DNA of 64,000 bases from Actinoplanes siamensis (lineage in GTDB: Bacteria; Actinomycetota; Actinomycetes; Mycobacteriales; Micromonosporaceae): the NCBI RefSeq assembly GCF_016862395.1, contig NZ_BOMW01000028.1, forward strand, positions 62,001 to 126,000, written 5' to 3'. Positions 41,427 to 58,768 of the stretch are shown in pieces. Below the pieces are notes generated by a model. That model was given only the letters and a program-made list of their open reading frames with translations. It was not told the origin of the DNA and searched no databases. The position numbers and the translations under genes are program-made. The number at the start of each line of letters is the position of its first letter. Position 1 is the stretch's first letter.

Positions 41427-41622
41427 TGGCGGGCGGAGGACGGCCGGACGAACGCCGGAAACCCGGGCCGCGTCCGTGCGACGGTGGGGACGGCAACCGG
41501 CCACGACGCGGCCGGAACGCACACCTCGCCGAACACGGAAAAATGCCTGTGCCCCCTTGTTCGCCACGGAATCAGCGGAAAAGATGGGGCAGCATTCGCT
41601 GATCCCCTTACCTGGAGGCCGG

Positions 41623-43059
41623 ATGACCGCCAAGCAGACCCTGCACAATTTCATCGGCGGCGCCGCGGTCGCGCCGGCCGGGGGACGGTATTCCGACCTC
41701 GTCGACCCGGCCACCGGCGAGGTCTTCGCCTCCGCCCCGGTCTCCGGCCCCGAGGACGTCGACCGCGCCATGTCGGCGGCCGCCACCGCGTTCGAGGGCT
41801 GGCGCGACACCACCCCGGCCGACCGGCAGCGGGCGCTGCTGAAGTTCGCCGACGCGGTCGAGGCGCGGGCCGGCGAGCTGGTCGCCGCCGAGTCGCGAAA
41901 CACCGGCAAGCCGCTCGGCCTGACCGCCAGCGAGGAGCTGCCGCCCGCCGTCGACCAGCTCCGGTTCTTCGCCGGCGCGGCCCGCCTGCTCGAAGGCCGC
42001 TCCGCCGGGCAGTACCTGAACGGTTTCGAGAGCTACGTGCGCCGCGAGCCGGTCGGCGTCTGCGCGCAGGTCACCCCGTGGAACTACCCGCTGATGATGG
42101 CGGTCTGGAAGATCGCGCCGGCGCTGGCCGCGGGCAACACCGTGGTGCTCAAGCCGTCCGACACCACACCTGTCACGTCGGTCCTGCTGGCCGAGATCGC
42201 CGCCGAGTTCTTCCCGGCCGGCGTGTTCAACGTGGTCCTCGGCGACCGGGACACCGGCCGCGCGCTGGTCGAGCACCGGACGCCGCAGATGGTGTCGATC
42301 ACCGGCTCGGTGCGCGCCGGCATGGAGGTGGCCGGCAGCGCCGCGGCCGATCTCAAGCGCACCCACCTGGAGCTGGGCGGCAAGGCCCCGGTCGTGGTCT
42401 TCGAGGACGCCGACGTCGCCGCGGCCGCCGCCGACATCGCGGTCGGCGGCTACTTCAACGCCGGCCAGGACTGCACCGCCGCCACCCGGGTGCTGGTCGC
42501 CCCGGCGATCTACGCCGACTTCGTGGCCGCCCTCGCCGAGCAGGCCAGAAACACCAGGACCGGGCAGCCGGACGACGAGGACGTGCTCTACGGCCCGGTC
42601 AACAACGCGGGCCAGCTGGCCCGGGTGACCGGCTTCATCGACCGCCTGCCCGACCACGCCACGATCGAGGCGGGTGGCGCCCGGGTCGGCGACCGCGGCT
42701 TCTTCTTCTCACCGACCGTCGTGGCCGGACTCCGCCAGCAGGACGAGATCATCCAGAACGAGGTGTTCGGACCGGTCATCACGGTGCAGCGGTTCACCGA
42801 CGAGGACGAGGCGGTCCGCCTGGCCAACGGCGTCGACTACGCCCTCGCCTCCAGCGTCTGGACCAGGGACCACGGCCGTGCCATGCGGATGACGCAACGG
42901 CTCGACTTCGGCTGCGTCTGGGTGAACTGCCACATCCCGCTGGTCGCCGAGATGCCGCACGGCGGCTTCAAGCACTCCGGGCACGGCAAGGACCTCTCGG
43001 TGTACGGCCTGGAGGACTACACCCGGATCAAGCACGTCATGCACAACGTAGGGGCCTGA
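41623..43059 (+). CDS. Gamma-aminobutyraldehyde / aldehyde dehydrogenase
   Basis: A 478-residue NAD-dependent aldehyde dehydrogenase of the PatD/PuuC type, oxidising 4-aminobutanal to GABA. Seen: CAQVTPWNYPLMMAVWKIAP (about 147), the active Glu in LELGGKAPVVVFEDAD (about 255) and Cys in NAGQDCTAATRVLV (about 288). It ends with GHGKDLSVYGLEDYTRIKHV, a tail typical of this subgroup. ATG at 41623 has GGAGG upstream. It starts a four-gene operon with GABA transaminase, an AsnC regulator and an FAD oxidoreductase. Confidence 0.92.
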   Translation: MTAKQTLHNFIGGAAVAPAGGRYSDLVDPATGEVFASAPVSGPEDVDRAMSAAATAFEGWRDTTPADRQRALLKFADAVEARAGELVAAESRNTGKPLGLTASEELPPAVDQLRFFAGAARLLEGRSAGQYLNGFESYVRREPVGVCAQVTPWNYPLMMAVWKIAPALAAGNTVVLKPSDTTPVTSVLLAEIAAEFFPAGVFNVVLGDRDTGRALVEHRTPQMVSITGSVRAGMEVAGSAAADLKRTHLELGGKAPVVVFEDADVAAAAADIAVGGYFNAGQDCTAATRVLVAPAIYADFVAALAEQARNTRTGQPDDEDVLYGPVNNAGQLARVTGFIDRLPDHATIEAGGARVGDRGFFFSPTVVAGLRQQDEIIQNEVFGPVITVQRFTDEDEAVRLANGVDYALASSVWTRDHGRAMRMTQRLDFGCVWVNCHIPLVAEMPHGGFKHSGHGKDLSVYGLEDYTRIKHVMHNVGA

Positions 43060-43062
43060 GCC

Positions 43063-44337
43063 GTGTCACATTCGGCTGACCTGCACAAACGCCGCCTCGC
43101 CGCGGTCGCGCGCGGGGTCGGCTCGACCATCTCGTCGTACGTCGCGCAGGCCGGCGGCGGCACGCTCACCGACGTCGACGGCCGGGAGTGGATCGACTTC
43201 GCGTCCGGCATCGCGGTCACCAACGTCGGCAACGCCGCGCCGAAGGTGGTCGAGGCGGTCCGCGCGCAGGTCGAGCGGTTCACCCACACCTGCTTCATGG
43301 TCGCGCCGTACGAGTCCTACGTGGCGGTCTGCGAGCAGCTGATCGAGTTGACCCCGGGCTCGTACGAGAAGCGGGCCGCGCTGTTCAACTCCGGCGCCGA
43401 GGCGGTGGAGAACGCCGTCAAGATCGCGCGGCACGCCACCGGCCGGCAGGCGGTCGTGGTGTTCGACCACGCGTACCACGGCCGGACCAACCTGACCATG
43501 GCGCTGACCGCGAAGAACATGCCGTACAAGCACCGGTTCGGCCCGTTCGCGCCGGAGGTCTACCGCGCGCCGATGTCGTACCCGCTGCGCGACGGCGGGC
43601 TGGACGGCGCCGAAGCGGCCCGCCGGGCGATCGACGTGATCGAGAAGCAGGTCGGCGCCGGCAACGTGGCGGCCGTGCTGATCGAGCCGATCCAGGGTGA
43701 GGGCGGCTTCGTCGTACCGGCGCCGGGTTTCCTGCCGGCGCTCGCCGCCTGGGCGGCCGAGGCCGGCGCGGTCTTCATCGCCGACGAGATCCAGACCGGT
43801 TTCTGCCGGACCGGGCAGTGGTTCGCGTCGGAGCACGAGAACCTCACGCCGGACCTGATCACCACGGCCAAGGGGATGGGCGGCGGCCTGCCGATCGCGG
43901 GCGTCGTGGGCCGCGCCGAGCTGATGGACGCCGTGCACGCGGGCGGCCTGGGCGGCACCTACGGCGGCAACCCGGTGGCCTGTGCCGCCGCGCTGGCAGC
44001 CGTCGAGACCATGCGCGAGCTGGACCTGGCCTCGGCCGCGCGGCGCATCGAGTCGATCCTGGTCCCCGCCCTGGTCGCGATCAACGATCAAGATCAAGGG
44101 ATTGCGGAGGTACGCGGCCGGGGCGCGATGATCGCGATCGAGCTCGTGACGCCCGGTGGCAACGAGCCCGACCCGCTGCGCACGGCAGCCGTGTCCAAGG
44201 CCTGTCACGACGCCGGCCTGCTCACGCTGACCTGCGGAACCTACGGCAACGTGCTCCGTTTCCTGCCACCTTTGGTGATTCCCGACGCGGACCTCCACCG
44301 CGGGCTGGACATTCTGCGCGAAGCTCTCCGGAACTAG
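43063..44337 (+). CDS. gabT: 4-aminobutyrate aminotransferase
   Basis: A 424-residue PLP-dependent class III aminotransferase moving the amino group of GABA to 2-oxoglutarate. The PLP-phosphate loop is LFNSGAEAVENAVKIARHAT (about 107-126), the YHGRTNLTMALT block follows, and IADEIQTGFCRTGQW precedes the Schiff-base Lys in TTAKGMGGGLPIAG (about 271). The GTG start is 3 bp after the dehydrogenase stop. With the dehydrogenase it turns aminobutanal into succinic semialdehyde. Confidence 0.93.
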   Translation: MSHSADLHKRRLAAVARGVGSTISSYVAQAGGGTLTDVDGREWIDFASGIAVTNVGNAAPKVVEAVRAQVERFTHTCFMVAPYESYVAVCEQLIELTPGSYEKRAALFNSGAEAVENAVKIARHATGRQAVVVFDHAYHGRTNLTMALTAKNMPYKHRFGPFAPEVYRAPMSYPLRDGGLDGAEAARRAIDVIEKQVGAGNVAAVLIEPIQGEGGFVVPAPGFLPALAAWAAEAGAVFIADEIQTGFCRTGQWFASEHENLTPDLITTAKGMGGGLPIAGVVGRAELMDAVHAGGLGGTYGGNPVACAAALAAVETMRELDLASAARRIESILVPALVAINDQDQGIAEVRGRGAMIAIELVTPGGNEPDPLRTAAVSKACHDAGLLTLTCGTYGNVLRFLPPLVIPDADLHRGLDILREALRN

Positions 44338-48136: not shown

Positions 48137-49537
48137 TCACAGGCGGTTCCAGGCCTCCGTCAGCACGCCCCGCAGGATCTGCTCGATCTCCGCGAACTGG
48201 GTTTCCGTCGCGGTCAGCGGCGGCGCCAGCTGGATCACCGGGTCGCCCCGGTCGTCGGCCCGGCAGTAGAGGCCGGCCTCGAACAGGGCGCTGGAGAGGA
48301 AGCCGCGCAGCAGCCGCTCCGACTCGTCGGCGGTGAAGGTCTCCTTCGTCGCCTTGTCCTTGACCATCTCGATGCCGAAGAAGTAGCCGTCGCCGCGGAC
48401 GTCGCCGACGATCGGCAGGTCGAGCAGCTTCTCCAGGTACGACCGGAAGAGCGGGCTGTTGTCCCGGACGTGCTGGTTGAGGTTCTCCCGCTGCATGATG
48501 TCCAGGTTGGCCAGGGCGACCGCGGCGCCGACCGGGTGGCCGCCGTAGGTGATGCCGTGCGCGAACCAGTTGGCGCCGGTGAGGAAAGGCTGGGCCAGGC
48601 GCTCCGACGCGATCATCGCGCCGAGCGGGACGTACCCCGAGGTCAGCCCCTTGGCGACGGTGATGATGTCGGGCTGGTAGCCGTACCTGTCGGCGCCGAA
48701 GAACTCGCCGAGCCGGCCGAACGCGCAGATCACCTCGTCGGAGACGAGCAGCACGTCGTACCGGTCGCAGATCTCGCGGACCCGTTGGAAGTATCCGGGC
48801 GGCGGCGGGAAGCAGCCGCCGGCGTTCTGCACCGGCTCCAGGTAGACCGCGGCGACGGTGTCCGGGCCCTCGAACTCGATCATCTCGGCGATGCGGTCGG
48901 CGGCCCAGACGCCGAACTGTTCCGGCGTCATGTTCTCGTCGGGGCGGCGGTAGTAGTTCGTGTTCGGTACCCGCACGGTGCTCGGGACCAGCGGCTCGAA
49001 GTCCTGCTTGAACGGCGGGATGCCGGTGATCGACAGGGCGCCCATCGAGCTGCCGTGGTAGGCCACGGCGCGTGAGATCACCTTGGTCTTCAGCGGCTTG
49101 CCGACCTTCTTGAAGTACGACCGGGCCAGCTTCCACGCCGACTCGACGGCCTCGGAGCCGCCGGTGGTGAAGAAGACCCGGTTCAGGTCGCCGGGGGCCA
49201 TCTCGGCCAGGCGGCCGGCCAGCTCGATGGCCTTGGGGTGCGCGTACGACCAGATCGGGAAGTACGCCAGCTCACCGGCCTGCTTGGCGGCGGCCTCGGC
49301 GAGTTCCTGCCGGCCGTGCCCGGTCTGCACCACGAACAGGGCGGAGAGCCCGTCCAGGTAGCGGCGGCCGGTGGAGTCCCACACGTAGCAGCCGTCACCG
49401 CGGGTGATCACCGGGACCGGCGCGTCCTGGTACGACGAGAGGCGGGTGAAGTGCATCCACAGGTGGTCACGGGCGGTCGCGGAGAGGGTTTCCACATCGT
49501 CGGGCTGTCGGTCGGTCACGGGGTCTCCACTGGCCAC
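48137..49537 (-). CDS. Aspartate aminotransferase-family protein (omega-amino acid/polyamine:pyruvate type)
   Basis: A 466-residue class III PLP transaminase. It has DGLSALFVVQTGHGRQELAE, FFTTGGSEAVESAWKLARSY (about 120), AVAYHGSSMGALSITGIP and LLVSDEVICAFGRLGEFFGA, with the Schiff-base Lys in TVAKGLTSGYVPLGAMI (about 297). Relatives use putrescine, beta-alanine or taurine with pyruvate. The GTG at 49537 is the start. It lies 144 bp from the PotC-like gene on the same strand, so it may be the last gene of the importer operon or have its own promoter. Confidence 0.9.
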   Translation of the reverse strand: MASGDPVTDRQPDDVETLSATARDHLWMHFTRLSSYQDAPVPVITRGDGCYVWDSTGRRYLDGLSALFVVQTGHGRQELAEAAAKQAGELAYFPIWSYAHPKAIELAGRLAEMAPGDLNRVFFTTGGSEAVESAWKLARSYFKKVGKPLKTKVISRAVAYHGSSMGALSITGIPPFKQDFEPLVPSTVRVPNTNYYRRPDENMTPEQFGVWAADRIAEMIEFEGPDTVAAVYLEPVQNAGGCFPPPPGYFQRVREICDRYDVLLVSDEVICAFGRLGEFFGADRYGYQPDIITVAKGLTSGYVPLGAMIASERLAQPFLTGANWFAHGITYGGHPVGAAVALANLDIMQRENLNQHVRDNSPLFRSYLEKLLDLPIVGDVRGDGYFFGIEMVKDKATKETFTADESERLLRGFLSSALFEAGLYCRADDRGDPVIQLAPPLTATETQFAEIEQILRGVLTEAWNRL

Positions 49538-49613: not shown

Positions 49614-49681
49614 TAGCGGAAAAACCTCACGTCGCGGAAGGCGCCGGCCACGGCATTCGTGACCGGCGCCGGCGGCGGGCG

Positions 49682-50512
49682 TCAGCCCCGGCGCGCCTTC
49701 GACCGGGACCGCAGGTTGGTGATCACCGCGATCAGCACGCCGGCCGCGAAGATCAGCGTGCCCATCACGTTGACCTGCGGCGGCAGGCCGACCCGGGTGG
49801 CACCCCAGATCCACAGCGGGAACGTCACGGTGGTGCCCGCGGTGAAGTTGGTGACCACGAAGTCGTCGATCGACAGCGCGAAGGCGAGCATCACGCCGGA
49901 GAACACGGCCGGCAGGATGATCGGGAAGGTGACCTTCCAGAACGTCGTCCACGGGCCCGCCCCGAGGTCGGCGGCGGCCTCCTCGATCGACCGGTCCAGG
50001 GTGATCACCCGGGCCCGGACCACTGTGGAGACGAACGAGATGGAGAACATCACGTGCGCGATGGTGATGGTGACCGCGCCCAGGCCGACCCCGGCCGAGA
50101 CGAAGAGCGTGAGCAGCGAGATGCCCATGATCAGCTCGGGCGAGGACATGGTGGCGAACATGATGAGGTTGACGCCCTCCGCGCCGCGGAACCGGTAGCG
50201 GCCCAGCGCGTATCCGATGCCGGTGCCCAGCGCCCCGGCCAGCAGCGAGCTGATCACCGCGATCACCAGCGAGATGACCAGGGCCGAGGTGAGGTCGCCG
50301 ATCTCGAAGAGCTTGGCGTACCACTTGACCGTGAAGCCCTGCCAGGTCTGGTTGTAGCGGCCCTTCGGGTTGTTGAACCCGAAGGCGATCATGATCAGGA
50401 TCGGCGCCACCAGCCAGGCGATGACCAACCAGGTGTACGTGAACAGCGCCCGCTCACCGGTGAGGCGGAACCGGCGCGCCCTCGTGGCCGGAGCCGGCAT
50501 CGTCGTGGTCAT
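49682..50512 (-). CDS. potC: Polyamine ABC transporter permease, PotC-like
   Basis: A 276-residue permease with six helices; helix 1 is about 27-47. The coupling loop DRSIEEAAADLGAGPWTTFW (about 178-197) is the classic PotC EAA motif, and ALSIDDFVVTNFTAG is characteristic of PotC. The ATG at 50512 overlaps the PotB-like stop as ATGA. Confidence 0.93.
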   Translation of the reverse strand: MTTTMPAPATRARRFRLTGERALFTYTWLVIAWLVAPILIMIAFGFNNPKGRYNQTWQGFTVKWYAKLFEIGDLTSALVISLVIAVISSLLAGALGTGIGYALGRYRFRGAEGVNLIMFATMSSPELIMGISLLTLFVSAGVGLGAVTITIAHVMFSISFVSTVVRARVITLDRSIEEAAADLGAGPWTTFWKVTFPIILPAVFSGVMLAFALSIDDFVVTNFTAGTTVTFPLWIWGATRVGLPPQVNVMGTLIFAAGVLIAVITNLRSRSKARRG

Positions 50513-51372
50513 CGCGCCGCCGCATTCATGACGTCCTCGGTGCCGAGCACCCGCGCGTACGCGAAGACGCCGGTCAGCAGCACTGCCATCAGGAAGAAGG
50601 ACAGCGCCGAGGCCATCGGGTAGTTGGAGTTGGCCAGCGCCTGCGCCTGCACGACCTGGCCGATCATGGTGGTCGACGAGCTGCCCAGCACCCCGGAGTT
50701 GACGTAGTCGGAGCTGGCCGGGACGAACGTCATCAGCACACCGGCGAAGACGCCGGGCAGCGCGAGCGGGAACACCACCCGCCGGAAGACCGTCATCGGC
50801 GCCGCGTACAGGTCCCGGGCCGCCTCCACCACGCGCGGGTCGATGCGCTCCAGGGCCACGTAGATCGGCAGCACCATGAACGGCAGGAAGTTGTAGATCA
50901 GACCGAAGATCACCGCGTACGGCGTACCCAGGATGTGGAAGCCGGGCGAGAGCAGCCCGGCCTCCTTCAGCGGGTGCAGCAGCATCCCGTCGTCGGTGAG
51001 GATCTGCCGCCACGAGATCGTCCGCAGCACGAACGACACGAAGAACGGCAGCAGGACGAGGAACAGGTAGGTCGGCTTGCGCCGGCCGCCGTAGAAGGCG
51101 ATCCAGTACGCGACCGGGAAGCTCATCACGATCAGCGCCACCGTCGTGATGAGCCCGTACACCAGCGAGCGGATCAACTGGACGCGGTAGTCGGTGATGG
51201 CGTCGAGGTAGTTCTGCCAGTGACCGGTGAACCGGTATCCGTTGATGATGTCGCCCTGCTGCAGGGAGAGCGAGAACATGGTGACCATCGGCACCACGAA
51301 GAACAGCAGCAGCCACAACCCGCCGGGCAGCACCAGCAGGTAGGGCGCGAGTGTACGTTTCACCCGGTTCAT
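50509..51372 (-). CDS. potB: Polyamine ABC transporter permease, PotB-like
   Basis: A 287-residue permease with six helices. FFVSFVLRTISWRQILTDDG (about 108) and the coupling loop ERIDPRVVEAARDLYAAPMT (about 170) are typical of PotB. It is coupled to the PotC-like gene and starts 4 bp after the binding-protein stop. Confidence 0.93.
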   Translation of the reverse strand: MNRVKRTLAPYLLVLPGGLWLLLFFVVPMVTMFSLSLQQGDIINGYRFTGHWQNYLDAITDYRVQLIRSLVYGLITTVALIVMSFPVAYWIAFYGGRRKPTYLFLVLLPFFVSFVLRTISWRQILTDDGMLLHPLKEAGLLSPGFHILGTPYAVIFGLIYNFLPFMVLPIYVALERIDPRVVEAARDLYAAPMTVFRRVVFPLALPGVFAGVLMTFVPASSDYVNSGVLGSSSTTMIGQVVQAQALANSNYPMASALSFFLMAVLLTGVFAYARVLGTEDVMNAAAR

Positions 51373-51376
51373 CGGC

Positions 51377-52627
51377 TCAGCTCAGTGTGATCGGTTCGAA
51401 GATGCGCTGGAAGTTCTGCTGCTCCTCCGCGGTGTTGAAGTCCACGTAGTAGTGCAGCTTGGCGTAGTCGGACTCGCCCGGGAACACCAGCGGGCTGTCC
51501 GCGACCTCGGTCAGCGTGGCCCTGTCGTCGCCGCTCGCGGCCGCCGCGTCCTTCTTGATCTGCGCCTGCGCGGCCGGCACCGGGCAGACGTAGTTGATGT
51601 ACTCGGCCAGCGCCGCCGCGTTCTCCACCTCGTAGAAGAAGTCCATCAGCATGATCGCGTCGACCGGGTTGGTAGCGGTGACCGGGATCGTCATGTTGTC
51701 GGTCCAGATCGTGCCGCCCTCCGACGGGATCACGAACCGGAAGTCCGTACCGTCCGACACGTTCTTCTGGAAGACGTCGCCGGACCACGCCTGGGTCAGC
51801 CAGACCTCGCCCTTGCCCAGCGCGTCGACGTAGCTCTGGTCGTAGTAGTTGCGGACCATGCCCGCGTCCTTCTGCTCCTTGAGCTTGGCCGCGGCCTTCT
51901 TCCAGTCGCCCTCCTCCGAGTCGCCCGGCTTGAGGCCCGCCGCGAGCAGGCCGAAGTTGGCCAGCTCCTGGGTGTCGGAGAACATGCCGACCTTGCCCTT
52001 GAACTTCGGGTCCCACAGGTCGGCCAGCGAGGTGATCTCCCGGCCGGTCTTCTTGATGTCGTACGCGATGCCGGTGATGCCGGACGCCCACGGGATGCTG
52101 AAGACGTTGCCCGGGTCGAACGCCTCGTTGGCGTACGACTTGGCGGCGTTCGCGGCGTAGTTCGGCAGCTTGGAGTGGTCCAGCGGGGCCAGGAAGCCGC
52201 CGGAGCGGAACTGCCCGAACTGGAGCGAGTTGGTGATCACCATGAGGTCGAAGCCGATCGACTGACCGGCCGAGAGCTGGGGCTGCACCTTGGCGAACCA
52301 GGGGCCCATCTCCTGGATGACCTCCTGGTAGTTGACCGTGATGCCGGTCCTCGCGGTGAACTTCGCGAGCTCGGGCTTCTTCGGGTCCATGTAGAGCGGC
52401 CAGTTGGCGAAGTCGACCTTGCCGTTCTTGACCTTGCCGCCCCAGAACTTCTGCACCGCGTCGGGAGCGACGCTGGCCTCCGGCGAGCCCTTGCCCTGCA
52501 CGCCGCAGGCCGCGAGGAAGGCACCAAGAGCCGACACCCCGCCGAGGCGCAGGGCGTCACGGCGGCCGAGCCGCCGCGACGTCAGGCCGCGGAGGAGGGC
52601 GGGGTCCGGCTTGTTGGTCGGGAACAT
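51377..52627 (-). CDS. potD: Polyamine-type extracellular binding protein, PotD-like
   Basis: A 416-residue receptor with a twin-arginine-like, lipoprotein-type signal: TSRRLGRRDALRLGG, a hydrophobic core and LAAC (Cys about 41). The mature part has KVDFANWPLYMD, FDLMVITNSLQFGQF, SIPWASGITGIAYDI and the C-terminal half of PotD/PotF folds. Ligand may be putrescine, spermidine or a related compound. The ATG shares one base with the ATPase stop (TGATG). Confidence 0.92.
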   Translation of the reverse strand: MFPTNKPDPALLRGLTSRRLGRRDALRLGGVSALGAFLAACGVQGKGSPEASVAPDAVQKFWGGKVKNGKVDFANWPLYMDPKKPELAKFTARTGITVNYQEVIQEMGPWFAKVQPQLSAGQSIGFDLMVITNSLQFGQFRSGGFLAPLDHSKLPNYAANAAKSYANEAFDPGNVFSIPWASGITGIAYDIKKTGREITSLADLWDPKFKGKVGMFSDTQELANFGLLAAGLKPGDSEEGDWKKAAAKLKEQKDAGMVRNYYDQSYVDALGKGEVWLTQAWSGDVFQKNVSDGTDFRFVIPSEGGTIWTDNMTIPVTATNPVDAIMLMDFFYEVENAAALAEYINYVCPVPAAQAQIKKDAAAASGDDRATLTEVADSPLVFPGESDYAKLHYYVDFNTAEEQQNFQRIFEPITLS

Positions 52628-53784
52628 CAGACTCCGATCGGGTACGAGTGCTGCGGGGCCCAGGTGAGGAAGACGCGCTCGCCGCGCGAGGCGACGTCCT
52701 CGGCATCGTGCGCGTTCTGATCGAACACCACGAAATCAGATCCAGCGGACGTCGCCACTGTGTAGTTTGTCGATGTCCCGTGGTAGACGACCTCGGTGAC
52801 GGTCCCGGCGAGGACGCTGCCGGCGGCCTGCAGGGGCGCCGTGCGGTGCAGGCCGATCTTCTCGGGCCGCACCGACACCTCGATGCCCTGCCCGGCCCGC
52901 ACCGAGCCGGGCACCGGCGCCACGATCCGCTCCCCCGGCCCGACGTCCAGCACGGCCCATCCGTTCTCCACCCGGCTGACCCGTCCGTCGACGATGTTGG
53001 AGGTGCCGATGAAGCCGGCCACGAACCGGGTCGCCGGCTTCTCGTAGATCTCCCGGGGCGTGCCGAGCTGTTCGATCAGGCCGGCGTTCATCACCGCGAT
53101 CCGGTCCGACATGGTCAGCGCCTCGCCCTGGTCGTGGGTGACGTAGACGAAGGTGATCCCGACCTCGCGCTGGATCCGCTTGAGCTCGATCTGCATCTGC
53201 TGGCGCAGCTTGAGGTCGAGCGCGCCGAGCGGCTCGTCGAGCAGCAGCGCCCGCGGGTGGTTGACCAGCGCCCGGGCCAGCGCGACGCGCTGCTGCTGGC
53301 CGCCGGACATCTCCCTGGGGTGCCGCTTCTCCATGCCGGTGAGCGAGACGATCTCCAGGATCTCGCCGACCCGCCGCCTGATCTCGGCCTTGCCGACCTT
53401 CTTGCGCTCCAGCCCGAACGAGACGTTCTGCAACACGTTGAGGTGCGGGAACAGCGCGTACGACTGGAACACCATGTTCACGTCGCGCTTGTTGGCCGCG
53501 ACGCCGGTCACGTCCTTGCCGTCCAGGAACACCCGGCCGGTGGTCGGCGCCTCGAAGCCGGCGATCATCCGCATCGTGGTGGTCTTGCCGCAGCCGGACG
53601 GACCGAGCAGCGAGAAGAACTCCCCCTGAGCGATGGACAGGTCGAGGCTCTTGACGGCCGGGACCGCCTCGCCGTGCGACAGGTATTGCTTGCGCACCCC
53701 GGCGAACTGGATCGCCGGGTGGCCGGTCCGCTCACCGCCGGCGGACCGAGCCGTCACGGCGTGATGCGGGGGAGACGTGGTCAT
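52627..53784 (-). CDS. potA: Polyamine ABC transporter ATPase, PotA-like
   Basis: A 385-residue ATPase: Walker A GPSGCGKTTTMRMIAGFE (about 60), Q-loop VFQSYALFPHL, signature MSGGQQQRVALARALV, Walker B ALLLDEPLGALD and His switch VTHDQGEALTMSDR. A C-terminal TOBE domain (from about 285) is present. ATG at 53784 has GAGGTG upstream; the longer frame to 53907 is unlikely. It is the first intact gene of the importer operon, preceded by two decayed genes on the same strand. Confidence 0.94.
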   Translation of the reverse strand: MTTSPPHHAVTARSAGGERTGHPAIQFAGVRKQYLSHGEAVPAVKSLDLSIAQGEFFSLLGPSGCGKTTTMRMIAGFEAPTTGRVFLDGKDVTGVAANKRDVNMVFQSYALFPHLNVLQNVSFGLERKKVGKAEIRRRVGEILEIVSLTGMEKRHPREMSGGQQQRVALARALVNHPRALLLDEPLGALDLKLRQQMQIELKRIQREVGITFVYVTHDQGEALTMSDRIAVMNAGLIEQLGTPREIYEKPATRFVAGFIGTSNIVDGRVSRVENGWAVLDVGPGERIVAPVPGSVRAGQGIEVSVRPEKIGLHRTAPLQAAGSVLAGTVTEVVYHGTSTNYTVATSAGSDFVVFDQNAHDAEDVASRGERVFLTWAPQHSYPIGV

Positions 53785-53831
53785 CGTGGTCACCTCGGGG
53801 CGGGGGTGGTGAAATTCGGTCGGGCAGCGGA

Positions 53832-54059
53832 TCAGCCGGGACAGCTCATCACGTGTTTGATCCGGGTGTACTCCTCGAAGCCGTGCAGGGAAAGGTCCTT
53901 GCCCCATCCCGTGTGGTGGTAGCCGGCCACCACCTCGGCGCGCGCCGGCGCGTGCGCGTAGGTCTCCCCGGCGTCGACGACCGGCGACGTCCGCCCCACC
54001 TCGGTGTCCGCGAACGACCAGCCGACGAAGTTGCGCAGCACGAGAAATTCGGTGCTCAA
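53832..54059 (-). pseudogene. Internally deleted aldehyde dehydrogenase
   Basis: A 75-codon frame whose start (LVLRNFVGWSFADTEVGRTS then PVVDAGETYAHAP) matches the first about 40 residues of PatD/PuuC-type dehydrogenases. Its end (GYHHTGWGKDLSLHGFEEY then TRIKHVMSCPG) matches the last 30. Roughly 400 middle residues, including catalytic Glu and Cys, are gone in one in-frame deletion. The closing block is close to that of the intact enzyme at 41623-43059 (GKDLSVYGLEDYTRIKHV). It lies 47 bp upstream of potA on the same strand. Confidence 0.8.
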
Positions 54060-54110
54060 GGAGGAGGTGCCTTCCGATCGTGTGGGTCTGATCACCCGAA
54101 GTGGGGTGAC

Positions 54111-54139
54111 CTTGTCACACCGGGTACAGGCGTGACAAG
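54111..54139. promoter_or_regulatory. Perfect inverted repeat CTTGTCAC-N13-GTGACAAG
   Basis: Eight-base perfect arms at 54111-54118 and 54132-54139. It lies between the decayed aminotransferase and the decayed dehydrogenase, about 330 bp upstream of potA. A second, weaker dyad (ATCACCC / GGGGTGAC, 54091-54110) adjoins. Position and symmetry suit a regulator site or the promoter of the importer operon. Confidence 0.5.
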
Positions 54140-54212
54140 GGAATCCGAAGTAATTTCCAAGCATGAAACGGAATCCAAATCCCCGGTGACCAGGGGACAA
54201 CGTAATCCCGTT

Positions 54213-54600
54213 TCAGGAGGAGCAACAACGATCCGCCACGGCGAGCGCCGCATCGATGGGCGCCAAGCCCACGCGGATCTCCTCGGCGCTCGTGGCGCAC
54301 GGCGGCACCACGGGTAAGCGGTTGACATGCGGGAACGGCAGAGCCGTCGCTCCTTGCACGCCGCCGCCTCCGCCATCGGGCCGGCCGCCGCGCCCGCCGC
54401 GTCGAACGGCACCAGCGGGGTCCGGTCCGGGTCCCGGATCAGCTCGATTGCCCGCAACACGCCCGGTCCACCGACTTCGCCACCCACGGGGCTGCTTTTC
54501 GGCGAGCTCGGCGAGACCGCGACCGCGACCGATCACGTCCTCGCCGAGCGCGCGGGATCGCGTCGGAGATCACCACACCGCCCAGCGGCACCTGGCCGGA
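54213..54600 (-). pseudogene. Frameshifted C-terminal remnant of a class III aminotransferase
   Basis: Three different minus-strand frames give successive pieces of one aminotransferase: VPLGGVVISDAI (near 54590-54555), then GLAELAEKQP, then GEVGGPGVLRAIELIRDPDR and TPLVPFDAAGAA (54480-54390), then PFPHVNRLPVVPPCATSAEE to ALAVADR (54330-54220). The segment between SDAI and the next piece lacks about 45 residues, and at least two frameshifts are needed. The N-terminal half and the PLP lysine are missing. I recognise nothing in 54601-54830. Confidence 0.75.
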
Positions 54601-54830
54601 GTCCTCCCGGGCGGGGCGGGGGCGGAAGACGTGGGTGCGGGCACGGCGTTCCGGGCGGGCCCCGGCGCCCGCACGCACGTCGGATCACCGCCGGGCCCGC
54701 AACGAAATGATGGCCACCGTCCGGGAAAACGCCTGCGCCGAGCACACCGTCGCCGAGGACGGCGGGACACCGACCTCCGACGAACCGTTTCCGCTTCTCG
54801 ATCGGCACGGACCGACTGCTCGACTACCGA

Positions 54831-56438
54831 TCAGTCCCTGACCGGGACGAAGCTGGCGAAGACCACGTCAAGCACCTCCCTGCGGTACCTGGACCAGTCC
54901 GACTCCGGGGTCTGGAACCAGAAACCGTAGGCCTGGTGCGCCGACGTGACGACGCCGCGGTTGTTGATGTGCTGGGTGCCGTTCCTGCGGTAGGTGAACT
55001 CCCAGTCGGCCGCCTTCACGAAGTAGTCCACGGACTCGAGCTTGATCTCGCGGTAGTCCGGGAAGTCGCCGCCGCGCAGCCGGGCGTCCCGCTGCGAGCG
55101 CCAGTCGGCGACCGGGTTCGATCGCGGCTGGTCGGTCTGGTCGATGCCCAGGACGTGCCCCTTCCCGTCCCGCCAGTACCGCATCGAGCCTTCCTTCGAC
55201 GTGGTCCAGCCGTCCGGCACGTACACCCGGAATCCGGTCTTGTCCGAGTAGTCGATCCACCCGGCGGGCAGCGGCGGCCGGGCATTCGCGGCGCTGCGGC
55301 TCGGCGAGGCGGACGCCGGCGGCGACGCCGGCGGGGAGGACGAGGCGGCGGCCGACGGCTTCGCGCTGGTCACGGTCGTCGCCGGGGGCACGGCCGGCGG
55401 AGAGGCCACACCGCTGCCGCCCGTGGTCGTCCGCGACGACGGGCGGTTCACCAGGAACACCGCCAGGCCGGCGAGCACCACCACCACCGCGGCGGCCAGG
55501 GCGACCAGCTTGCGCTTCGGGCTCTTCTGCGCCGGTACGGCCGGGGCAGCCGGCGGGATGTCGTCGTCGACCGGGACGCGCGGGGCCGGAATGGCGGCGG
55601 CCGCCCGGGCCACCGGCTCGGCCTCCAGCGTGGCCACGGCCTCCCGCAGCAGGCGCTCCGCCTCCTCCGCCTCGATCCGCTGCTCCGGGTCCTTGCGCAG
55701 CAGCCCCTCGAGGACCGGGGCGAGCGGACCGGCGTGCGCCGGCTGCTCCGGCTCCTCGGTGGCGAGCGCCGCCAGGGTCGCCATCGTCGACGAACGCTGG
55801 AACGGGGAATGGCCCTCGACCGCGGCGAACAGGGTGGCGCCCAGCCCCCACAGGTCGGCCGGCGGGCCGCCGGTGCCGAACCGGGCCCGCTCCGGCGCCA
55901 TGTAGAGCGGCGAGCCGAGCAGCACGTCGGACTTGCTGGTCAGGCTGTCGTCGTCGAGCGCGGCGATGCCGAAGTCGGTGAGCAGCACCCGGCCGTCGTC
56001 GGCGAGCAGCACGTTCGCCGGCTTCACGTCGCGGTGGTGCACGCCGGCCCGGTGCGCGGCCTGCAACGCGGCGAGCAGATCCAGGCCGATCCGGGCCACC
56101 CGGTACGCGTCGAGCGGGCCGTCCTCGGCGGTGACCTGGCGCAGGGAGCGGCTCGGCACGTACTCCATGACGATCCAGGTGTGGTCGTCGAGCGACAGGA
56201 CGTCGTACACCTGAACGACGTTGGGGTGGCTCAGGCGGGCCGCGGCCCGCGCCTCCCGCAGGGTCCGCCGCACGGCCGCGTCGCCCTGGGCGATCTCCTC
56301 CGGGAGATCTATCTGTTTGACAGCGACCTCGCGTTGCAGGGTCTCGTCGTGCGCCCGCCAGACCTGGCCCATGCCGCCACGGCCGAGTTCCTCACCCAGG
56401 CGATAGCGACCGGCGAGCAGGGGCGGCGCGTCAGGCAT
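54831..56438 (-). CDS. Membrane-anchored Ser/Thr protein kinase
   Basis: A 535-residue Hanks-type kinase. The catalytic domain (about 8-265) has the glycine loop GEELGRGGMGQVWRA, Lys in VAVKQIDL, catalytic HHRDVKPANVLL, DFG in LLTDFGIAAL and LGSPLYMAPERARFG. A single membrane helix is at about 308-330. A Ser/Ala/Pro-rich extracellular linker leads to a C-terminal domain (from about 390; WIDYSDKTGFRVYVPDGW) shared with other actinobacterial kinases, possibly a sensor. ATG at 56438 is used; 56513 is an alternative. Confidence 0.92.
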   Translation of the reverse strand: MPDAPPLLAGRYRLGEELGRGGMGQVWRAHDETLQREVAVKQIDLPEEIAQGDAAVRRTLREARAAARLSHPNVVQVYDVLSLDDHTWIVMEYVPSRSLRQVTAEDGPLDAYRVARIGLDLLAALQAAHRAGVHHRDVKPANVLLADDGRVLLTDFGIAALDDDSLTSKSDVLLGSPLYMAPERARFGTGGPPADLWGLGATLFAAVEGHSPFQRSSTMATLAALATEEPEQPAHAGPLAPVLEGLLRKDPEQRIEAEEAERLLREAVATLEAEPVARAAAAIPAPRVPVDDDIPPAAPAVPAQKSPKRKLVALAAAVVVVLAGLAVFLVNRPSSRTTTGGSGVASPPAVPPATTVTSAKPSAAASSSPPASPPASASPSRSAANARPPLPAGWIDYSDKTGFRVYVPDGWTTSKEGSMRYWRDGKGHVLGIDQTDQPRSNPVADWRSQRDARLRGGDFPDYREIKLESVDYFVKAADWEFTYRRNGTQHINNRGVVTSAHQAYGFWFQTPESDWSRYRREVLDVVFASFVPVRD

Positions 56439-57490: not shown

Positions 57491-58768
57491 TCAGCGGGAG
57501 CGGCGGATCAGGGCGACGCCGGCGGCGGCCGTGGCGAGGGCGGCTCCGAGGAGCGCGTACTCCCGGGGGTTGGCGGCGACCCGGCGCCGCGCCGAACCGA
57601 TCGCCGTGGTGGCGCGTTCCGCGGCGTCCGCCGCGGAGGAGGCCATCCTGGTGCCGGTCTGCGCGGTGGCCTCGGCGATGTGGCCAGGGGTGTGCGTCGT
57701 GCCTGCTCCCGCCGCCGGCTCGGTCTCCTTGTCCTGGGTGGCCTTGTCCTTGACCTCAGCCGCCTTGTCCTTGATCTGGGCGGCCTTGTCCGCGGCGGTC
57801 TCCTTGAGGTGCGTGGCCTTGTCCGCGGCGGCCTCCTTGAGATGCGTGGCCTTGTCCGCGGCGGCCTCCTTCAGCAGGGCGGCCTTGTCCGCGGCCGAGT
57901 TCTTCACGCGGGACGGGATGTCCACCTTGGCGACCAGGGCCTCCACGGTGTCGCCCATCTCGGCGCGGGTCTGCTCGATCTCCGCTCGCAACTCCTCGCT
58001 CCCGCGAGGGGGCGTGTCGTTCTTGTCGTCGTCCTTGCGCTCCGACTGAACAGCCATGGATCCGTTTCCCTTCGACATCTCGGACTTCATCGGCTGAGCC
58101 GTCGCGGGCTCCGGAGTGGCTTCGGCGCTCCCGGCGCCCGGCGCGTCCCGCAGCGGGCCGCCCTTCCCACCGGGAGCCGACGAGGCGCCCGCCAGGGGAT
58201 CGGACGCCGCCGCCGGCGGCACGGCCGGTGTGCTGGGCGTGACCTCCGCCGCGGCGTGCTCCGGCGGCCCGGGCTCGCTGCCCGTGGTCGGCGGCGTCGC
58301 TGCTCCTGGCGTCGCGGCGTGCTTCGGGGGCGCCGGCTTGGGGGTGGCCGGCCTCGCGCCGGCAGTGGCAGGCGTCCGAGGCGGGCCGGGCTTCGGCGGG
58401 GTGGGTCTGGGGGCCTGTGACGGACCGGGGGCGGCCTTCCCCGGCGAGCCGGCGGGGTGCTTCGCCGCCTTGGCGCCGCCCGGCGCTGTGTCGCGGGCGC
58501 CGGCCGGGGCTTTGCCCGCCGGGTCGGAGCCCGTCCCGGTCGCGGCTTTGCCGGCCTTCGGCTCCGGGACGCCGGACGCGGGGGCGGAGCCCGCTCCCGG
58601 CGCCGAGCCGGTGGCTTGCGGTGTGCCGGGGCGCTTCGGCGGCGGGGCGGGGGCCGGCGCCTTGCCCGCGGTGCCCGGACCGGGCACCGGCCGGCCGGCC
58701 CGGGCGCCGTGGTCGCGCGGACTCCGCCCGGTGGCCGGCCGGTCGCCGCTGGTGGCGTCGTCGCTCAT
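57491..58768 (-). CDS. DUF3618 protein with long Pro/Ala-rich N-terminus and AADK repeats
   Basis: A 425-residue protein. Residues 1-240 are a Pro/Ala/Gly-rich low-complexity region. Then comes the DUF3618 motif SEELRAEIEQTRAEMGDTVE (about 263-282), four to five repeats of an 11-12 residue AADKATHLKE unit forming an amphipathic helix, and a C-terminal helix (YALLGAALATAAAGVALIRR) likely in the membrane. ATG at 58768 has GGAGG upstream and overlaps the holin-like gene by 4 bp. An internal ATG at MAVQSERKD would give the usual short form. Function unknown; probably envelope stress. Confidence 0.82.
   Translation of the reverse strand: MSDDATSGDRPATGRSPRDHGARAGRPVPGPGTAGKAPAPAPPPKRPGTPQATGSAPGAGSAPASGVPEPKAGKAATGTGSDPAGKAPAGARDTAPGGAKAAKHPAGSPGKAAPGPSQAPRPTPPKPGPPRTPATAGARPATPKPAPPKHAATPGAATPPTTGSEPGPPEHAAAEVTPSTPAVPPAAASDPLAGASSAPGGKGGPLRDAPGAGSAEATPEPATAQPMKSEMSKGNGSMAVQSERKDDDKNDTPPRGSEELRAEIEQTRAEMGDTVEALVAKVDIPSRVKNSAADKAALLKEAAADKATHLKEAAADKATHLKETAADKAAQIKDKAAEVKDKATQDKETEPAAGAGTTHTPGHIAEATAQTGTRMASSAADAAERATTAIGSARRRVAANPREYALLGAALATAAAGVALIRRSR

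Follow-up and report, generated by a model that had tools for sequence, protein, structure and literature searches.

The aminopropyl part of spermidine is converted, by way of 3-aminopropanal, beta-alanine and malonate semialdehyde, to acetyl-CoA. In Pseudomonas aeruginosa the bauABCD beta-alanine locus sets an omega-aminotransferase beside a CoA-acylating semialdehyde dehydrogenase and is linked to polyamine use. The locus described in this work would resemble bauABCD in these respects, but differs in its gene set, and because it is joined to a PotADBC importer. In sister loci an aminotransferase, an aldehyde dehydrogenase and a CoA-acylating semialdehyde dehydrogenase (MMSDH) are found together in 24/24 cases. 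The trio, lost here, would fit the route from 3-aminopropanal to acetyl-CoA, and plausibly represented the beta-alanine (aminopropyl) branch of polyamine catabolism. The solved chain nearest to the intact sister aminotransferase is 6jix (372.7 bits), a taurine:2-oxoglutarate aminotransferase, and taurine resembles beta-alanine. Intact sister enzymes fit the NCBIfam families NF004718 (aminotransferase) and NF010000 (PRK13473 aminobutyraldehyde dehydrogenase). Pieces of the copy analysed here align in order to the former, though this copy is a pseudogene, and the counterpart of the latter is reduced to 75 codons. Literature searching, through listings and the openings of abstracts, retrieved nothing recognised as treating this locus. 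Another instance of actinobacterial polyamine catabolism is the GlnA3 route of Streptomyces coelicolor, which starts by gamma-glutamylation (PMC5403932); unlike in the route as outlined there, no gamma-glutamylating synthetase is found among the module genes identified here.

The window, i.e. the whole stretch of DNA analysed, is made of 64,000 nucleotides of the soil actinobacterium Actinoplanes siamensis (G000:C28:62001-126000; genome of 8.22 Mb, draft assembly in 161 contigs). Among the relatives matched by the window PotD (36 loci), Actinoplanes and Paractinoplanes prevail. The genus comparison set includes 67 genomes, the window genome being one of them. Forty-eight loci were mapped, namely the window and those of 47 of the other 66 genomes, and 16 further genomes carrying the aminotransferase fall outside the mapped set. 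The aminotransferase L030:7775-9112, from genome G016, was used as intact sister reference protein, and dehydrogenase codons are numbered according to L030:9230-10702, in which codon 13 is the likely start. Constraint was measured by aligning nine intact sisters to the window, and retaining as invariant the columns in which a base was present in at least 8 of them and all agreed. No Rfam match was found at 53500-55000, and a plasmid search gave one match (6%). The features are collected in Table 1. The locus very probably hosts a pseudogene of a PRK06062-type aminotransferase once located before the aldehyde dehydrogenase heading the pot operon, the importer and an intergenic element having been retained. 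Several deletions and frameshifts would have collapsed the enzyme module on the lineage of this genome: a MocR-type regulator and the MMSDH would have vanished, the aminotransferase would have left two or three pieces, and of the dehydrogenase both ends and a short middle portion would have remained. The importer genes stayed intact, under selection.

Table 1. Features of the locus, in window coordinates
Feature	Position	Strand	Basis
Second aminobutyraldehyde dehydrogenase (PRK13473 type), old	41476..43059	+	NCBIfam, orthologues in sisters
GABA transaminase GabT, old	43063..44337	+	NCBIfam, orthologues in sisters
Second aminotransferase (PRK06541 type), old neighbour	48137..49537	-	NCBIfam, synteny
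potC, intact, start approximate	49682..50480	-	best NCBIfam match PotC, below cut-off
potB, intact	50509..51372	-	Pfam BPD_transp_1 over cut-off; best NCBIfam match PotB, below cut-off
potD, intact	51377..52627	-	Pfam binding-protein families over cut-off; best NCBIfam match PotD, below cut-off
potA, intact	52627..53784	-	TIGR01187 over cut-off; 17/876 invariant columns changed
Dehydrogenase remnant, codons about 13-50, 355-367, 460-490 and stop	53832..54059	-	sister DNA and protein comparison
Conserved intergenic element, putative promoter/operator for dehydrogenase and pot genes; core 54140-54158	54109..54190	-	0/45 invariant columns changed
Aminotransferase remnant, codons about 332-445 and native stop, two frames	54213..54556	-	tblastn, sister DNA, NF004718, shuffle control
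Aminotransferase remnant, codons about 275-291	54556..54608	-	83-87% to 5/5 sisters (DNA); protein piece 277-299, frame -1
Probable aminotransferase remnant, codons about 11-22	54606..54640	-	collinear place in 5/5 intact sisters
Unassigned DNA at the junction where MMSDH and MocR-type regulator were lost	54641..54739		sister matches end at 54640-54643
Serine/threonine kinase gene, flanking the lost module upstream	54831..56438	-	best NCBIfam match PknB-type, below cut-off; syntenic in sisters

The minus strand of the region 54213-54608, probably up to 54640, is a pseudogene of a class III aminotransferase of the PRK06062 type (NF004718). By tblastn, residues 277-299 of the reference protein were found at 54603-54535 (frame -1), residues 333-440 at 54557-54231 (frame -2), and residues 353-403 at 54490-54341 (frame -3, E 4.5e-17). 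The frame -1 and frame -2 matches have a joint E of 1.6e-15; the ends of the latter (333-352 and 404-440) fit, but its gapped middle does not. Residues 277-299, 333-352, 353-403 and 404-440 follow each other in order on the minus strand of 54213-54603. The real sequence scored 65.1 bits, versus a maximum of 28.9 bits in 500 dinucleotide shuffles of 54213-54640, and 20.0 bits for the same sequence reversed. The NF004718 profile independently matches 54225-54353 (E 1.9e-5), and the native TGA stop is found at 54215-54213, which is the lower boundary set by the first-pass annotation. The claim made there, that pieces of a single class III aminotransferase occur in order in three frames, is borne out by tblastn, family profile, sister DNA comparison and shuffles alike. 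The frame is disrupted by the three-frame arrangement and by two large internal gaps, most of codons 1-274 and about codons 292-331 being missing. In the comparison with G016 the preserved sequence starts at codon 275, and lysine 274 of the sister, in the FAKG motif, which we take to be the cofactor lysine, is absent. In G023 the match to the longest piece begins only at 54515. The uppermost piece is 74-80% identical to 5/5 sisters over 35-38 bases (E 1.6e-4 to 0.012). Since out-of-place matches of comparable E occur in the same DNA search, this piece belongs only probably to the remnant, as argued by its place in five of five related sisters. A putative N-terminal match at 54792-54821 (E 1.6) was rejected; it aligns with the 3' flank of the kinase gene in sisters.

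A second pseudogene, derived from an aldehyde dehydrogenase of the PRK13473 type, lies between the aminotransferase remnant and the intact potA. It retains 75 of about 478 codons. Codons from about 51 to 354 are missing, and with them the region of the residues that we assume to be the catalytic Cys and Glu. In G021, G007 and G065 a TGA is found within the dehydrogenase match, in each case ahead of the likely start codon. Collinear blocks were found in sisters; their spacings, about 1.2 kb and 4.4 kb in L030, are 20 and about 180 bases in the window. In G036, G047, G014, G016 and G032 the alignment of the kinase flank begins at 54724-54740.

The aminotransferase remnant is under relaxed constraint: 28/199 sister-invariant columns are changed in it, versus 31/2814 in the intact neighbours (potA 17/876, potD 5/896, second aminotransferase 9/1042). 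The two ends of the dehydrogenase exhibit changes at 7/80 (N-terminal, 53955-54059) and 7/79 invariant columns. Taken together, the remnants feature 42/358 changed columns, and the difference from intact neighbours is highly significant (Fisher 3e-22). Changes at codon positions 1-2 account for 12/14 of those in the dehydrogenase remnant, versus 11/31 in intact genes (Fisher 0.003). The draft state of the assembly could invite the view that an intact gene has merely been broken by sequencing or assembly errors. This is already contradicted, and we give it practically no credit, as the remnants show raised substitution, affecting every codon position in the dehydrogenase, and most of both genes is missing. 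Moreover, no aminotransferase of the NF004718 type reaching the family cut-off is found elsewhere in the window genome (best 313.8 of 472), and identity to the sister copy of the lost dehydrogenase is only 67-68% for the two others of its kind that remain.

The three dehydrogenase pieces join in frame, and form a 75-codon ORF running from TTG at 54059 to TGA at 53832. Start codon (TTG here, GTG in sisters), frame and native stop have outlasted two internal deletions, and the ORF stops 47 bases before potA, features which would suit a selected leader peptide, or a translational coupler for potA. Such a role is very improbable, because the fused ORF changes much faster than intact genes (14/159 invariant columns, with the bias to the first two codon positions reported above), the counterpart remnant in G019 is out of frame, and the in-frame survival of an ORF of this kind by chance is not rare.

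The organization preceding the decay can be read in intact relatives. L030 carries, in order, a divergent gene for a MocR-type regulator (best match below cut-off), MMSDH (TIGR01722, 688.4 bits, cut-off 448.5), aminotransferase (NF004718, 757.5 bits, cut-off 472), dehydrogenase (NF010000, 698.3 bits, cut-off 615), potA, potD, potB, potC, an FAD oxidase and the second aminotransferase (NF005102, 817.7 bits). The aminotransferase is intact in 24 of the mapped loci (in G032 it is found as two adjoining matches), and all of these feature the divergent MocR-type regulator, MMSDH, aminotransferase, dehydrogenase and potA in this order; potD, potB and potC follow potA in 14 of them, those drawn in full. 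The ancestral order earlier proposed for the operon (aminotransferase, dehydrogenase, potA, potD, potB, potC) is correct, up to potA in 24/24 loci and for the remaining genes in the 14 loci drawn in full, but the module so defined was incomplete, as MMSDH and the divergent MocR-type regulator, located further upstream, are also gone. The aminotransferase is found in 40/67 genus genomes, in one copy each. MMSDH is matched at E 1e-100 in 65/67 genomes, G000 and G046 being the only ones with no such match; in the window genome nothing reaches the MMSDH family cut-off (best 252.9 of 448.5). The dehydrogenase is matched at E 1e-150, and PotD at E 1e-100, in 64/67 genomes each. In the window the ATPase, the two permeases and the binding protein of the importer are all intact, though potA alone passes a NCBIfam Pot cut-off; judging from family names, the substrates are presumably polyamines (spermidine/putrescine). 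The FAD oxidase gene occurs, at the place corresponding to 49657-49703 of the window, in L030 and some relatives, and is absent in the window and in several sisters.

According to an earlier suggestion, the copies at 41.6-44.3 kb and 48-49.5 kb took the place of the lost enzymes. The gene at 48-49.5 kb encodes an aminotransferase, and that at 41.5-43 kb a dehydrogenase; their activities are related to the lost ones, and both regions are still intact. Replacement is unlikely all the same, because sisters that keep the module whole also carry orthologues of these genes. For the 41.5-46 kb cluster this is true of 8/8 intact sisters checked (identity of 88-92% for GabT, 93-96% for Lrp, 83-93% for the dehydrogenase, 81-87% for the FAD oxidase), and a second dehydrogenase is present in 40/40 genomes with an intact aminotransferase. 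The 48-kb aminotransferase resides beside 22/24 intact modules; it is found after the pot genes within 8.5 kb in 21 of these loci, further out in the twenty-second (G039), and is broken into three pieces in G032. Being found along with intact modules in sisters, both the cluster and the 48-kb gene predate the loss, and an arrival of these paralogues after the split is refuted, as judged by their distribution among genomes. The aminotransferase subfamilies differ as well. Those retained are PRK06058 GabT and PRK06541, that lost is PRK06062, and identity to the sister copy of the lost enzyme is 33% for GabT and 34% for the 48-kb gene. The old paralogues may rather back up the lost enzymes, and buffer their absence.

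A different candidate source of compensation is a GABA/amine cluster on contig C60 (L110:7207-14046), which encodes a cytosine/purine-type permease, an alcohol dehydrogenase, an aldehyde dehydrogenase, GabT and a further aldehyde dehydrogenase. The C60 GabT, the sole gene of the cluster searched, is matched at E 1e-200 in 1/67 genus genomes, G000 alone, and a lineage-specific cluster might have taken over and allowed the loss. This is rather doubtful, since MMSDH over cut-off is absent from the genome, and hence from the C60 cluster, and G046, which has lost the same genes, has no match of the C60 GabT type.

The conserved intergenic element lies between the aminotransferase and the dehydrogenase remnants. 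Within its bounds, which were chosen after viewing the alignment, none of 45 invariant columns is changed, versus 42/358 in the remnants (Fisher 0.008); for the whole intergenic stretch 3/79 columns are changed, and the contrast is weaker than for the chosen part (Fisher 0.04). At up to 3 mismatches the 19-base core occurs at a single place in the window, none being expected, and in the genome at one exact place and at one more with 3 mismatches. Within 5 mismatches the core is found in 42/48 loci, ahead of whichever gene opens the dehydrogenase-pot unit, and at this threshold is missing in the remaining 6 (G046, G050, G001, G006, G030, G031). Wherever the dehydrogenase is near full-length (39 loci) the core precedes it, as it does the broken dehydrogenases of the window and G019; in G017, which has no dehydrogenase at the locus, 98 bases separate the core from the aligned part of potA. 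The element most likely acts today as the promoter/operator for potADBC transcription, and would have been kept between the two broken genes for this reason. A consensus scan covering the sigma-70 type alone revealed no promoter, nor recognisable -35/-10 boxes, in the element. A terminator-like hairpin is found at 54195-54181. The element is not indispensable everywhere, because in G046, where the same genes have been lost, it is eroded, yet potA, potD and potB match over nearly full length; the Pot proteins of G046 sit on a long branch (0.16, versus 0.052 for the window). The locus is a clear case of operon decay with intact sisters at hand, in which transport genes and apparent regulatory DNA have been kept and enzymes lost. 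Through the contrast between unchanged element and changed remnants, the pseudogenes act as a natural footprint that outlines a probable regulatory site; apart from this conserved, probably regulatory island, the case is one of ordinary gene loss.

The history of the module in the genus was traced with a PotA, PotD and PotB tree of 48 genomes, obtained by a quick method and rooted by choice on G030/G031. Minimum changes on this tree are 8 for the presence of the aminotransferase, 3 for MMSDH and 5 for the whole dehydrogenase. It looks like MMSDH and aminotransferase were added once, upstream of an older dehydrogenase-pot operon, and the tree can be read as implying seven later losses of the aminotransferase, those in the window, G046 and G019 among them. 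With one addition followed by seven losses, many of the 27 genomes without the aminotransferase probably never had it. The window sits among intact genomes, in a 6-row set (SH-aLRT 97; 87/98 in the DNA tree) which is unresolved on codon positions 1-2 alone. As for the losses in G000 and G046, trees prefer separate placement of the two genomes, but the AU test does not reject a sister pair (p 0.222, 0.115, 0.307). Tentatively, and with slightly less than even confidence, we suggest that the added catabolic module has been repeatedly lost in the genus via deletions whose limits are fixed on one side by the old promoter element and on the other by the potA start. According to this view, the element would survive as a selected island between pseudogenes, and the operon, which once combined uptake and catabolism, would be left with uptake alone.

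Reduced modules are also seen in two other loci. In the stretch from kinase to potA of the G046 locus (L093) the same module is lost, and only the ends of the dehydrogenase are left. In G019 (L095:9514-10298) both aminotransferase and dehydrogenase are broken, MMSDH is near full-length, and the core of the element is unchanged.

Two other features were noticed outside the decayed module. Within a DUF3618/LEA_4-like ORF of the window, the region 57738-57906 is matched several times, at short shifts, in some sister loci, which suggests a tandem repeat varying in copy number. G000:C23:8307-9554 encodes another PotD-like binding protein (77% identity to the window PotD), and a second copy is found in part of the genus.
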